Assembly: GCA_017461235.1 (NCBI GenBank)
Contig: JAFTYU010000009.1
Span: forward strand, 72,177-132,970
Length of the DNA stretch: 60,794 bases
DNA from: Clostridia bacterium
Lineage (GTDB): Bacteria > Bacillota > Clostridia > Oscillospirales > Acutalibacteraceae
Reading direction: 5' to 3'
Shown here: positions 4,085 through 14,915 of the stretch, piece after piece
Layout of the letters: every line of letters starts with the position of its first letter
Numbering within the stretch: the stretch's first letter is position 1
The notes under the pieces: generated by a model
Database searches by the model: none
What the model saw: the letters and a program-made list of their open reading frames with translations, nothing else
What the model was told of the DNA's origin: nothing
Made by a program: the position numbers and the translations under genes

Positions 4085-5674
4085 ATGGGTAAATATGCAA
4101 TCAGTTATGATATTGGTACAACAGGTGTTAAAACCTGTATTTTTGAACTTGCCGATACTATCAAATTAGTTTCGGCTGCTTCGGAAGGCTACAACCTTTA
4201 CGTTTTCCCCGATGGTGGTGCTGAGCAGGAGCCACAGGAGTGGTGGGATGCCATGTGTTCCACAACCAGAAAGGTTCTTGATAAATGCGATGTTGACATA
4301 AATGATATTTGCGGTATTTCTTTCTGCTCACAGATGCAGGGCATTGTTCTTGTTGATAAAGACGGCAAGCCCGTCCGTCGTGCTATGAGTTATATGGACC
4401 AGAGAGCACGAAAAGAGGTTAAAGAAGGTTTGGCATACGGTCCCCAGGTGGCAGGTGCTTTTATTCCTAAGCTACTTGTTTCTCTGAGCATAACAGGTGC
4501 TGTTGCTGCTTCGGTTAAGGACCCTGTCTGGAAATATAAATGGGTTGAGAAAAATGAACCTGAAAACTTTAAGCGTGTACATAAATGGCTTGATGTAAAG
4601 GAATATTTTATTGCAAGAATGACGGGTGAGTTCTGTATGACACATGACTCCGCCTTTGCAACATTGCTTTATGATATCAAAAAACACGAATTCAGCAAAA
4701 AAATGTGCAATATGTTGGGCGTTAACTACGACCATCTTCCCGAAATCAAAAAATCATCCGAAAAAGTCGGTGAGCTCCTTCCGCAGGCGGCACAAGAGTT
4801 GGGCCTTGCCCCCGGTACTGCCGTTTTCGGCGGTGGTGGTGATGCATCGCTTATCGGTGTTGGCGCAGGTTCTGTTGCTTTGGGTGACACTCACATTTAC
4901 AGCGGTACATCCGGTTGGGTGTCAACTGTTGTTGATAAGAGTATTGTTGATGCTTCTGCTATGATTGCCGCAGTTGTTGGTGCGGAAGAAGGCAGATATA
5001 ATTACTTTGCCGAGCTTGAAACAGCAGGTAAGTGTCTTGAATGGGTTAAGGACCACCTTGCACTTGATGAAATTGGTATTTACCTTGAAAAGAAAAATGT
5101 TACCGACGGTTACGAGGCCGAGTACACAAGCCTTTATGATTATATGACCCATGTTGTTTCCAAGGTTCCTGCAGGTTCAGGCGGTGTCATTTTCACACCC
5201 TGGCTCCACGGTAATCGTTGTCCGTTCGAAGATCCTAATGCAAGAGGTATGTTCTTTAATCTCAGCCTTGAAACGGGCAAGAGCGAAATGATCAGAGCGG
5301 TGCTTGAAGGTGTTTGCTATCATCTCAGATGGTTCCTTGAGACCGAAGAGAAAAAGGTAAAATCTTCAGAAAAAGTCCGTTTTGTAGGCGGCGGTGCTCT
5401 TTCGGATCTTACTTGCCAGATTCTTGCAGATTGTACGGGCAAGGTGGTTGAAACTGTTGACACTCCCCAGAATGTAGGTGCGATGGGCGCGGCAGTGCTT
5501 ATTGCTGTCGGTATGGGTCAGTGTGACTCTATTGAAGATGCTAAAAAGCTTATTCCTGTCAGCAAAACCTTTACTCCGGATGCTGATGCTAAAAAGGTTT
5601 ATGACAAATATTATGAGGTTTACAAAAATCTTTATGCTTCCAACAAAAAGAACTTTGCAAAGCTCAATTCTTGA
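4085..5674 (+). CDS. FGGY-family carbohydrate kinase, xylulokinase-like
   Basis: A 529-residue sugar kinase of the FGGY family, most likely phosphorylating D-xylulose with ATP to feed the pentose phosphate pathway. It opens with the ATPase-fold phosphate loop YDIGTTGVKT, has the substrate-region GISFCSQMQGIV, the adenosine-side GTSGWVS and the C-terminal RFVGGGALSDL. Length fits the family. The ATG at 4085 lies nine bases after GGAGG, against three for an in-frame ATG at 4079, so I chose 4085. No xylose isomerase or transporter is adjacent, so the substrate is inferred from family only; another ketose or polyol is possible. Confidence 0.85.
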   Translation: MGKYAISYDIGTTGVKTCIFELADTIKLVSAASEGYNLYVFPDGGAEQEPQEWWDAMCSTTRKVLDKCDVDINDICGISFCSQMQGIVLVDKDGKPVRRAMSYMDQRARKEVKEGLAYGPQVAGAFIPKLLVSLSITGAVAASVKDPVWKYKWVEKNEPENFKRVHKWLDVKEYFIARMTGEFCMTHDSAFATLLYDIKKHEFSKKMCNMLGVNYDHLPEIKKSSEKVGELLPQAAQELGLAPGTAVFGGGGDASLIGVGAGSVALGDTHIYSGTSGWVSTVVDKSIVDASAMIAAVVGAEEGRYNYFAELETAGKCLEWVKDHLALDEIGIYLEKKNVTDGYEAEYTSLYDYMTHVVSKVPAGSGGVIFTPWLHGNRCPFEDPNARGMFFNLSLETGKSEMIRAVLEGVCYHLRWFLETEEKKVKSSEKVRFVGGGALSDLTCQILADCTGKVVETVDTPQNVGAMGAAVLIAVGMGQCDSIEDAKKLIPVSKTFTPDADAKKVYDKYYEVYKNLYASNKKNFAKLNS

Positions 5675-8484: not shown

Positions 8485-8808
8485 ATGACAGATTTTTTGG
8501 GTGCAGTTATTACTTTCACAGCAGGCATAGGTATAGCTACATTAAATTATTATATTTCAAAATATTTCTTGGAAAAAAATCCCGACAAATTTGCTATGAC
8601 AACAGTTGTTAAACAGATTTTTAATGTTGGATACCTTGTAGCAGTTTATATGTTCGGGGATTTTTTGCCGTTTAAATTATCATATTTGCTTATCGGTGCA
8701 GTTTTGGGAATAACTTTGCCTATGTTTATTTACACGCGGAAGCTACTTAAGCTTAATGAATCAAAACGTGTAGAAACACGTGAAAAAGAAGGTGAGTCGG
8801 ATGGGTGA
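8485..8808 (+). CDS. atpI: ATP synthase accessory membrane protein (AtpI-like)
   Basis: A 107-residue hydrophobic protein with three predicted membrane helices (about residues 3-22, 40-57 and 63-85) and a charged tail. It overlaps atpB by eight bases at the head of the ATP synthase operon, the usual place of AtpI, which helps assemble the c-ring. Sequence identity to known AtpI cannot be judged by eye, so the name rests mostly on position and topology. Confidence 0.65.
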   Translation: MTDFLGAVITFTAGIGIATLNYYISKYFLEKNPDKFAMTTVVKQIFNVGYLVAVYMFGDFLPFKLSYLLIGAVLGITLPMFIYTRKLLKLNESKRVETREKEGESDG

Positions 8809-9472
8809 AAAATCAAAGGTTATAATTGAGCTTTTCGGGTTTCTTGATGTAACCGGTGAAGTTATTGGTATGTGGATTATATTGGGTATAATCACTTTGA
8901 TTTCGCTGATTGTAAGGCTTACTCTTAAAGAAAAACCCGGTAAATTTCAGAATATTATAGAAACAGGAATTGAATATCTAGACAACTTTTTCGGTGATAC
9001 TTTAGGTAAAAAGAAATCAAGAAAGTACTTTACGTTTCTTGCCACACTTTTTATTTTCATAATTTTTTCGAACTATTCGGGTCTTTTCCCGGGTATGGGT
9101 ATGACTGAATTTGTGAAGGCACCTACATCATCACTTTCGGTGACGGCGGGTCTGGGTATTGTAACATTTGTTTTCTTACAGATTGCAGGTTTGCGACATA
9201 GTGTTAAACACTATTTTAAAAGATTTGTAAGTCCTATGTTTTTTATGTTACCACTTTTATTGCTTGATGAAATTATAAAACCCGCCTCCCTTGCCTTGCG
9301 ACTGTACGGTAATATTTTTGGTGAGGAAACCGTAACGGAGGAGCTTTATCATATTTTACCTATCGGTGCTCCGGCGGTAATGATGATTTTGTCGTTACTT
9401 TTCTGTGCATTACAGGCGGTTGTGTTTACGATGCTTGTATCAATATACCTTGATGAGGTTACTGAAGAATAA
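8801..9472 (+). CDS. atpB: F-type ATP synthase subunit a
   Basis: The membrane proton-channel subunit of Fo. The 223-residue protein has the family motifs SNYSGLFPG, KAPTSSLSVTAGLG and SLALRLYGNIFGEE; the arginine in LALRLYGN is the essential residue facing the c-ring. I start at the ATG at 8801; an upstream in-frame start would add MKKKVSR inside atpI. Five to six membrane helices are visible. Confidence 0.95.
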   Translation: MGEKSKVIIELFGFLDVTGEVIGMWIILGIITLISLIVRLTLKEKPGKFQNIIETGIEYLDNFFGDTLGKKKSRKYFTFLATLFIFIIFSNYSGLFPGMGMTEFVKAPTSSLSVTAGLGIVTFVFLQIAGLRHSVKHYFKRFVSPMFFMLPLLLLDEIIKPASLALRLYGNIFGEETVTEELYHILPIGAPAVMMILSLLFCALQAVVFTMLVSIYLDEVTEE

Positions 9473-10169: not shown

Positions 10170-12383
10170 ATGGAAATACAGTATGTTATCATAAACTTTC
10201 TGTTAGTTGTCGCTATTGTGGTTATTGCAGGCAGAAAAACTATAAAATCTATTTTCACGAAACGGTTAAATCGTATTAATGACGAGTTTAAAGAAATTGA
10301 ACAAATCGAGAAAACAGAGTTGCCCGAGTTCAAGAATTTTGAGCCGGAAGCAAAGACAGAACAGTTATCTGACGATATAAAAAAAGCTGAGCTTGAGGCG
10401 CAGTCCAAAATAAAAAGAATAGAAGCAGCCGCTAAGAGAGAATGCTATGAAATTCACAAAGAATCTGTTGAAAAAGCGGGAGTAGAAATACTTGAAACAA
10501 TAAAAAAGAATGTTTGTGAATTGTTTTCTCAGGAGCCGTATCTCAGTGCTTTAAGAGCTCATGAAGCGGAAATGATAGACAATATTCTCAAGGAGGTTAA
10601 GCTTACACCGGGTGACTTAACATATCTTAAGCATCACGATGTTTTATATGTTACACTCAGTTCAGCACACAAGCTTTCCGAAGAAATTGTAAAGAAGGTT
10701 GACTCTTTTACAACCGAAATGTTAAACGAAGTCAACGGCAAAACATCTCTCTGGGTTTTAGAAGACCCGTCGCTTATCGGTGGAGTTAAGCTCAGAATCG
10801 GTGATACGGTATATGATTGTACCGTGTCAGAGGATTTTTACCGATATGAAAAAAGCCTTCGCAGAGTGCACATTCCTTTCGAAATAGGTGAGGATGAAAT
10901 TCTTAAAGAGTTCACTCATAAAGCGGAAACCTTCAAACCTAAAATTCACATATATCAGCTTGGCCGTGTTATGACTGTGTCGGACGGCATATGCTGGATG
11001 GACGGTCTTGCGGATATTATGTACGGCGAAGTTATTGAGTTTGACTGTGGCGAACGTGGAATGGTGCTTGATATTCAGCATAACCGTATCGGTTGTGTTG
11101 TTTTTGGCGAATATGAAAATATTGAAAGCGGTAGTCGTGTAAGACGTATAGGCAGAATCGCAACTGTTCCCGTAGGTGATGAGCTTCTGGGTAGAGTAGT
11201 TGACTCTGTGGGTAATCCTATTGACGGTGAAGGTTACATCAATACTGATGAACGCAGACCTATTGAGTTTAAAGCGCCTGCTATCCTTGACCGCGAAAGC
11301 GTAAGTGAACCGCTTCACACCGGTATAAAGGCTGTTGATGCTCTTGTGCCCATCGGAAAGGGTCAGCGAGAATTGATTATCGGTGACCGACAGACGGGTA
11401 AAAGTGCTGTTGCAATTGATGCTATTATAAATCAAAAAGGCAAAGATACAATTTGTATATATGTTGCTATAGGTCAGAAGGAATCAACAATTTCCGAAAT
11501 CAGAGAAACGCTTGAAAAATATGATGCGCTTAAATATACGGTTATTGTTGCGGCTTCTGCATCAGGTTCTGCAGCTACTCAGTATATTGCACCATTCAGC
11601 GCTACTGCTATGGGCGAATACTTTATGTATAACGGTAAGGATGTACTTATTGTATATGATGACCTGTCAAAGCACGCTGTAGCATATCGAGAGTTATCTC
11701 TTCTTTTACACAGACCATCAGGTCGAGAGGCTTATCCCGGTGATATTTTTTATCTTCATTCAAGATTGTTGGAGCGTTCAGCCAAATTGTCAGAGAAAAT
11801 GGGTGGCGGCTCTATGACGGCTTTACCCATAATAGAAACACAAGCAGGAGACATTTCTGCATATATTCCCACCAATGTTATATCCATCACCGATGGTCAG
11901 ATATTCCTTGATGGTGAATTGTATAATGAAGGACAGCGTCCTGCCATAAACGTAGGTCTTTCAGTTTCGCGTGTAGGCGGTTCGGCACAGACGAAGCTTA
12001 TGAAACAGGTATCTGCAAACCTTCGTACAAAGCTCGCTCAATATCGTGAGTTGATAGGTTTTGTTCAGTTCGGCGCAGAGGTAGATGCTGAAACGGCTAA
12101 AACCATCGAAACCGGTAAAAGGCTTACCGAAGGCTTGAAGCAAGCCCGTTATAAGCCCCTGGATGATAAATACCAGGCCTTGTTGCTTCTTGCGATTTCA
12201 GAAGGTTACAGTGATGACGTATCGATTGAATCGATGGCGATGTTTGAAGAAGAGCTTTATAAATTTTTTGATGCACAACACAGTGACATAATGAGTATTC
12301 TTGAAAAGGGCGATAAGCTCAGCAAAGAGACTCTTGATGAAATCAAGAAAGCTATGATTGAATTTAAGAAGAAGGTTAAATAA
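10170..12383 (+). CDS. atpA: Fused b'-like / delta C-terminal-like / alpha subunit of F-type ATP synthase
   Basis: One uninterrupted 737-residue frame. Residues 5-22 form a membrane helix, 23-118 a charged helical stalk like subunit b, and about 155-232 resemble the delta (OSCP) C-terminal domain (DPSLIGGVKLRIGDTVYD, near 199-216). From about 240 a complete alpha subunit follows: Walker A GDRQTGKS (405-412), the IYVAIGQKEST and DVLIVYDDLS segments, and SVSRVGGSAQTK (598-609). The usual six-helix delta N-terminal domain is not apparent. No separate atpH exists between atpF and atpG, where it normally lies, so delta function must come from this protein. There is no in-frame ATG between Met184 and Met268 and no clear internal ribosome site at the domain junction. 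RBS is AAGGGGCG. Normal alpha is about 500 residues. Confidence 0.93.
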   Translation: MEIQYVIINFLLVVAIVVIAGRKTIKSIFTKRLNRINDEFKEIEQIEKTELPEFKNFEPEAKTEQLSDDIKKAELEAQSKIKRIEAAAKRECYEIHKESVEKAGVEILETIKKNVCELFSQEPYLSALRAHEAEMIDNILKEVKLTPGDLTYLKHHDVLYVTLSSAHKLSEEIVKKVDSFTTEMLNEVNGKTSLWVLEDPSLIGGVKLRIGDTVYDCTVSEDFYRYEKSLRRVHIPFEIGEDEILKEFTHKAETFKPKIHIYQLGRVMTVSDGICWMDGLADIMYGEVIEFDCGERGMVLDIQHNRIGCVVFGEYENIESGSRVRRIGRIATVPVGDELLGRVVDSVGNPIDGEGYINTDERRPIEFKAPAILDRESVSEPLHTGIKAVDALVPIGKGQRELIIGDRQTGKSAVAIDAIINQKGKDTICIYVAIGQKESTISEIRETLEKYDALKYTVIVAASASGSAATQYIAPFSATAMGEYFMYNGKDVLIVYDDLSKHAVAYRELSLLLHRPSGREAYPGDIFYLHSRLLERSAKLSEKMGGGSMTALPIIETQAGDISAYIPTNVISITDGQIFLDGELYNEGQRPAINVGLSVSRVGGSAQTKLMKQVSANLRTKLAQYRELIGFVQFGAEVDAETAKTIETGKRLTEGLKQARYKPLDDKYQALLLLAISEGYSDDVSIESMAMFEEELYKFFDAQHSDIMSILEKGDKLSKETLDEIKKAMIEFKKKVK

Positions 12384-14915
<2,532 letters not shown>

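Follow-up and report, generated by a model that had tools for sequence, protein, structure and literature searches.

A conserved natural fusion of a membrane-anchored b-like stalk and the delta C-terminal domain with the ATP synthase alpha subunit suggests a three-stalk enzyme in gut Clostridia

Introduction

The literature describes ATP synthases as having one a subunit and one peripheral stalk (PMC12229609). In ordinary enzymes, the N-terminal region of alpha binds delta, and two of the three copies bind the delta N-terminal domain; Ueno et al. (2025; PMC12229609) argue that this domain, sitting on the three-fold axis of F1, restricts the enzyme to one stalk. According to the same source, deleting the delta N-terminal domain of the Bacillus PS3 enzyme and fusing the remaining delta to alpha resulted in an engineered enzyme that formed as many as three stalks, every one accompanied by an a subunit, and whose H+/ATP ratio was 5.8 versus 3.0. 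Cryo-EM particles of this enzyme carried 0, 1, 2, and 3 stalks in 15, 51, 26, and 8% of cases, respectively, and the authors suspect that stalks were lost during grid preparation. They also name natural delta-alpha fusions without the delta N-terminal domain (Acidaminococcus fermentans, UniProt G4Q3K6 and A0A1I2C5T3) and predict a multi-stalk enzyme (PMC12229609).

A further system bears on stalk number. In the PDB 9itj series of the Chloroflexus aurantiacus enzyme, an entry averages 3 alpha, 2 delta, and 4 b chains. Read from these counts, this suggests two stalks per F1, i.e., multiple stalks in nature; our full-text search found no literature on these structures. Here, we describe a gene of a Clostridia bacterium that joins a b-like membrane anchor, the delta C-terminal domain (deltaCTD), and alpha in one chain.

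Results

The window, i.e., the whole stretch of 60,794 nucleotides that was analysed (from contig JAFTYU010000009.1), holds an operon on the forward strand with the gene order small membrane protein, a, c, b, fusion, gamma, beta, and epsilon (Table 1). It encodes a whole F-type ATP synthase, with a, b, c, gamma, beta, and epsilon adjoining the fusion and all giving Pfam matches over cut-off. In the clade described below, 71 of 80 loci have an ORF similar to the small membrane protein upstream of a, and the b gene precedes the fusion in 80 of 80, two of these b genes being cut by a contig end. The arginine motif of the a subunit is kept in all 71 complete homologues examined. Glu-Ser/Thr at the ion site of the c subunit means Na+ use, and Glu-Ala points to H+. 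As this site reads Glu-Ala-(Leu/Ile), and not Glu-Ser/Thr, in 74 of 74 complete homologues examined, we rejected Na+ use; the motif argues for H+ as the coupling ion. Epsilon truncation (Table 1) was considered as a marker and rejected, because it is found in three full-delta operons too.

Table 1. Features of the ATP synthase operon in the window
Feature	Coordinates	Strand	Basis or remark
Small membrane protein, atpI-like by position only	8485..8808	+	No Pfam/NCBIfam family over cut-off
a subunit, 230 aa, short	8780..9472	+	PF00119, E 2.2e-43
c subunit, 76 aa	9497..9727	+	PF00137, E 3.3e-18
Separate short b subunit, 139 aa	9739..10158	+	PF00430, 33.1 bits, cut-off 28
Fusion: membrane helix, b-like segment	10170..10244	+	Residues 1-25; hydropathy, helix in both structure models
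Fusion: b-like stalk	10245..10604	+	Residues 26-145; PF00430 below cut-off, profile A4, long modelled helices
Fusion: delta/OSCP C-terminal domain	10605..10865	+	Residues 146-232; delta N-terminal domain absent
Fusion: joining segment and former alpha N-terminal helix	10866..10955	+	Residues 233-262; length fixed, sequence variable
Fusion: alpha subunit body, three domains	10956..12383	+	TIGR00962, E 3.5e-218; PF00006, PF00306, PF02874 each over cut-off
gamma subunit	12384..13220	+	PF00231, E 5.3e-51
beta subunit	13226..14638	+	TIGR01039, E 1.7e-229
epsilon subunit, 98 aa, without inhibitory C-terminal domain	14619..14915	+	PF02823 (N domain), sole match at E 1 or better

The host genome (2.15 Mb in 43 contigs, 93.97% complete) contains the fused alpha and its beta as its only ATP-synt_ab proteins, a single a subunit over cut-off, and the fused fragment as its sole OSCP match; this is therefore the only rotary ATPase found there. 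Neither a second OSCP/delta nor a free alpha gene was found elsewhere in this 93.97% complete genome. The sequence-only reading had reported atpH to be missing from the operon, which proved right and extends to the host genome at this completeness. rnfC is also present in the host, so that Rnf is a possible source of a modest gradient.

The fusion is encoded by a single uninterrupted frame of 737 codons (10170-12383, +). Residues ~1-145 form a membrane helix and a b-like stalk, residues ~150-232 the delta C-terminal domain, and residues 241-735 a complete alpha subunit, which matches TIGR00962 with 725.4 bits against a cut-off of 484.45. With the N-terminal piece as query, PF00213 matches residues 152-230 over cut-off (E 2.2e-10) and spans profile positions 96-172 of 172 only. 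Positions 1-95, the N-terminal helical domain of delta/OSCP, were unmatched in the fusion and elsewhere in the host genome, and the domain is absent from the structure model as well. The delta part of the fusion is the C-terminal domain only, not a whole delta.

For the b-like part, the ATP-synt_B match (PF00430, residues 4-114, E 7.9e-5) stays below cut-off with 23.2 bits versus 28. The architecture is that of b/b', with a membrane helix at the N-terminus leading into a long stalk helix, and profile A4 relates it to solved b chains, matching among PDB chains the b subunits of PS3 (6n2y), Chloroflexus, and the chloroplast (E <0.01) and the mycobacterial b-delta. Alignments A3 and A4 were built from 41 of the 77 unique fusion proteins. 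The stalk is modelled as long helices with a low-confidence break at about residues 50-66, and a 17-residue hydropathy maximum of at least 2.11 lies inside residues 1-32 in all 77 unique homologues. The composition read from the letters alone, b-like, delta, and alpha in one frame, is thus confirmed by the PF00430 (sub-cut-off), PF00213, and TIGR00962 matches. Of the delta-like and b-like assignments made there for the N-terminal segment, profiles recovered the OSCP/delta C-terminal half and a b match below cut-off; the loss of the delta N-terminal domain had been overlooked.

With residues 1-247 as query, 9 of the 60 near genomes, the own genome among them, showed the fusion, each time in one frame. 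Profile A1, built from nine fusions, was run against 394 genomes of the order: 18 gave full-length fusions, and another 42 gave partial matches only, to separate b or delta genes as judged by length. At E 1e-12 among 398 phylum-wide genomes, the profile matched the own genome alone. A scan of a genome collection gave 249 pattern matches and 188 relatives; the 80 best of these relatives were retained. The fusion is present in 80 of these 80 loci (76 complete frames and 4 running off the contig), and the order a, c, b, fusion, gamma, beta, epsilon is held wherever the contig covers the genes. No separate delta or alpha gene was matched at the loci of these best 80 of 188 relatives, so the arrangement with separate atpH and atpA at the same place, which would have spoken against a genuine fusion, was not encountered among them. 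The relatives are all MAGs, mostly assigned to Clostridia and Oscillospiraceae, alongside a small number of Christensenellaceae and others, and come mostly from the gut of ruminants, deer, rabbit, and horse. Removal of near-copies reduced 85 complete fusion proteins to 77 unique ones. A missing stop or frameshift at about 10860-10900, a worry raised from the sequence alone, was rejected, as the same frame is intact in 77 distinct homologues. In an alpha tree, the fused type forms one clade with a support of 100/100 and a long stem. The fusion is real and conserved well beyond chance, and the clade that uses it is old.

The alpha N-terminal helix provides a separate sign of domain loss. Expressed relative to the neighbouring alpha core, helix identity amounts to 0.84 among 11 operons with a full delta, 0.64 among 7 with a short separate delta, and 0.38 both among 4 deltaCTD-alpha fusions and among 26 members of the b-like-deltaCTD-alpha clade; this comparison omits L038, a short-delta row in which the motif was not found, and any pair whose core identity reached 0.95. 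This supports a loss of constraint on the helix, fitting an enzyme from which the delta N-terminal domain is gone. It supports rather than proves it, because the compared groups differ in age and size.

The joint between delta and alpha is fixed in length. From the conserved delta Asp (D216) to the conserved alpha Gly (G265) there are 49 residues in 75 of the 77 homologues and 48 in the other two; the joint sequence is variable, with a mean entropy of 2.09-2.15 bits in windows 231-260. The delta clamp is highly conserved (0.49-0.68 bits in windows 151-170 and 191-220). The same Asp-Gly span varies between ~37 and 53 residues in deltaCTD-alpha and delta-alpha relatives (23 fusions, the automatic value lacking for three), and a hand count from the alignment gives 48 for the engineered PS3 deltaDN-alpha chain. 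As the earlier reading stated, there is no ATG between Met184 and Met268; in-frame GTGs occur there at codons 219 and 233, with weak ribosome sites. In 41 of 77 homologues, residues 225-266 are free of in-frame ATGs. An in-frame ATG, GTG, or TTG with a strong site occurs somewhere at residues 141-266 in 37 of 77, by a ribosome-site score that is blunt and separates true starts from background poorly (22% of all codons 141-299 pass the threshold). No start position with a strong Shine-Dalgarno sequence near the junction is common to most of the 77. Synonymous-site constraint was not detected at 221-260; the score is raised at 261-290 (1.36-1.37 versus a mean of 1.17), likewise in other stretches of alpha. 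Codon 150 (10617-10619), just ahead of the delta domain, is ATG in 68 of 77 homologues and a leucine codon in the fusion studied here; a start at this codon would give deltaCTD-alpha, not free alpha.

Relatives show a graded series of stator designs. OSCP matches in the 60 near genomes comprise 11 full deltas, 11 separate deltaCTDs (frames of 53-92 aa, the 53-aa frame at a contig edge), 4 deltaCTD-alpha fusions, 9 b-like-deltaCTD-alpha fusions, one divergent 161-aa frame, and three more weak rows in other frames. Separate deltas of ~72-76 aa, made up solely of the C-terminal domain, lie between b and alpha in L037 (1241-1471), L035 (903-1121), L034 (1244-1462), L033 (1264-1482), and L038 (1249-1470). 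Two types can coexist: genomes G003 (L045/L050) and G008 (L047/L051) each hold a full-delta operon and the b-like-deltaCTD-alpha type, and G417 (L145/L192) holds the b-like-deltaCTD-alpha and the deltaCTD-alpha types.

A deltaCTD profile matched 207 of 394 genomes of the order. By hand count, the matches listed include at least 18 b-like-deltaCTD-alpha frames (one of 521 aa, the others of 736-784 aa), at least 43 frames of 579-625 aa, at least 9 genomes with frames of 637-706 aa, and at least 8 genomes with separate short deltas. We examined 20 such loci (10 of the 43 with 579-625 aa, all nine of the 637-706 aa group, and one 261-aa two-domain frame) and found delta and alpha in one frame in 19; from the 43, G054, G039, and G053 were examined additionally, and the other 30 are classed as fusions by length only. 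deltaCTD-alpha fusions without a b part are widespread in the order (L052-L055, L179, L181, L182, L189-L198) and resemble the engineered PS3 construct. L180 (4041-6068) encodes a tandem deltaCTD-deltaCTD-alpha in one 675-aa frame. The delta of L188 (complement of 4402-5154) has 251 aa and comprises one N-terminal domain and two C-terminal ones; a separate alpha adjoins it. L183, L184, L185, L186, and L187 are nearly full delta-alpha fusions (profile from 18-26 to 171-172); three delta N-terminal domains in one F1 would hardly find room together on the three-fold axis.

The trees took 26 or 12 of 101 usable fusion rows, thinned by identity and by hand, the 12-row tree without L060; five rows cut by contig ends were excluded from one analysis. 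The deltaCTD-alpha label needs at least 3 changes (gains or losses) over the starred branches. One large deltaCTD-alpha set (98/96) is nested in a wider group (95/80) with nearly full delta-alpha fusions and the ordinary separate delta of L018, as if fusion had preceded domain loss there. In another lineage, L055 groups as sister to L038 with its short delta (100/99), which looks as if domain loss had come before fusion. A general order of delta N-domain loss followed by fusion was rejected, since fusions keeping most of the domain adjoin the main deltaCTD-alpha clade. The b-like-deltaCTD-alpha clade is separate from both deltaCTD-alpha groups; its placement next to a sister group is tentative (85/72, long stem). 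The graded series points to repeated origins, and the deltaCTD-alpha design probably arose by two or more separate routes.

Discussion

We propose, with a probability of roughly two in three, that the operon encodes an obligate three-stalk ATP synthase in which each alpha would carry its own stalk half and up to three a subunits would give a low gear. Each alpha would bring a membrane anchor and b-like stalk, followed by the delta C-terminal clamp; since there are three alphas per F1, three identical fused arms would tie each F1 symmetrically to the membrane. Each arm is probably paired with one separate b subunit, giving a predicted composition of (b-like-deltaCTD-alpha)3, b3, beta3, gamma, epsilon, and a c-ring. 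What would make such a symmetric arrangement possible is that the delta N-terminal domain is lost; in other enzymes, it occupies the three-fold axis and permits a single stalk. A multi-stalk design of this kind is so far established with certainty in the engineered enzyme alone. Because the engineered enzyme carries an a subunit on each stalk, a single c-ring may here be served by as many as three a subunits, with up to three times the usual H+/ATP ratio. Presuming that it works in the direction of synthesis, this low-gear enzyme may allow gut anaerobes to produce ATP when ion gradients are small. A more complete version, a natural, obligate enzyme of three-fold symmetry whose three stalks are all covalently anchored, with three a subunits to each c-ring, an H+/ATP ratio equal to the c number, and a design locked by the anchor fusion, is tentative, and we would put it a little under even odds.

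The sequence-only reading rightly noted that three fused alphas bring three stator anchors to one F1. It saw in this a conflict with the single peripheral stalk, which vanishes because, by the published account, an enzyme with delta N-domain loss and alpha fusion binds up to three stalks (PMC12229609). Its proposed way out, a supply of free alpha by cleavage or internal initiation, is supported neither by start codons nor by synonymous sites nor by the fixed joint. Such free alpha would permit a one-stalk enzyme with one fused and two free alphas. The common ATG at codon 150 could speak for this, although its product would still carry the deltaCTD and the studied fusion has no ATG there, as could the 37 homologues with an internal start whose site is as strong as most true starts on a poorly discriminating score. 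Against these stand the 41 homologues without an in-frame ATG close to the joint, the lack of a strong start common to most, and the unconstrained synonymous sites at 221-260; a joint that keeps its length while its sequence drifts also argues against a conserved cleavage site. Free alpha is thus unlikely on these grounds, and we regard the one-stalk enzyme built on it as improbable.

Other readings accept three anchors and differ in what these do. Three stalks might share one a subunit, the arrangement of eukaryotic V-ATPases, so that the extra arms would stiffen the stator at a normal H+/ATP ratio. This is unlikely, though not far-fetched; in the published account, engineered stalks always came with an a subunit and the H+/ATP ratio doubled (PMC12229609). 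Alternatively, one arm alone might pair with b and a, leaving two idle, in line with the three stalks seen on just 8% of the engineered particles on the grid (PMC12229609). The membrane helix found in every one of the 77 homologues and the highly conserved clamp (0.49-0.68 bits) speak against this, and we consider it very improbable, even if a conserved arm is compatible with idle copies because all arms come from one gene. An assembly or annotation artefact might be feared in a source genome fragmented into 43 contigs, but the same frame recurs in 77 distinct proteins of many assemblies, which makes the chance of an artefact negligible.

The H+/ATP ratio is commonly held to follow c-ring size. 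A natural three-stalk enzyme, if true, would break the one-stalk rule and would allow anaerobes to make ATP from very small gradients. By our own arithmetic with the formula of PMC12229609, an assumed c10 ring with three a subunits would use 10 H+ per ATP; at a phosphorylation potential of 50 kJ/mol, the needed gradient would be ~52 mV versus ~155 mV. It could also provide the engineered design, which suffers from stalk dissociation, in a stable form, and the dense set of relatives makes the evolution of stator number testable. The principle, loss of the delta N-terminal domain together with fusion to alpha, is not new, because Ueno et al. (2025) noted natural delta-alpha fusions. The earlier statement that no such fusion had been described therefore falls for delta-alpha fusions without the delta N-terminal domain (PMC12229609) and stands for the type with a b-like anchor: full-text literature searches, covering the main texts of open-licence papers, found no published fusion of b-like, delta, and alpha parts. 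New as far as searched are the b-like anchor on every alpha, its old clade, and the graded series of relatives.

Among known systems, the Chloroflexus aurantiacus enzyme has separate subunits, unlike the fusion. N-ATPases (alternate F1F0) are F-type enzymes without a normal delta, and we know of none with a b-delta arm; the alpha part of the fusion scores 606.8 bits against the TIGR03324 cut-off of 750.5 and does not belong to this family. The mycobacterial b-delta resembles the fusion in having a b-like stalk and then delta in one chain, and takes the top rows for residues 1-232 by VIA-align. Unlike mycobacterial b-delta, the chain studied here does not end after delta but continues into alpha, and it lacks the delta N-terminal domain(s).

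The Acidaminococcus fermentans fusion is similar in that delta without its N-terminal domain is joined to alpha; the comparison relies on the published description, which in its available part mentions no b part (PMC12229609). The deltaCTD-alpha fusions of L052-L055 (568-587 aa) look like this type. The closest match is the engineered PS3 deltaDN-alpha FoF1, whose deltaDN-alpha chains (9jc1) are the three best Foldseek PDB matches of the full structure model; the fusion sequence aligns to 9jc1_I as one stretch through the junction, with delta lacking its N-terminal domain and joined to the alpha N-terminus in both. The two also share a joint of near-equal length and an epsilon without the C-terminal domain. 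The engineered enzyme is man-made, has b as a separate homodimer, and partly lost its stalks on the grid, whereas the natural fusion carries a b-like anchor in the same chain, accompanied by a shorter separate b gene. If the three-stalk reading is true, nature reached the design engineered in 2025, and this clade locked it by fusing the anchor to alpha.
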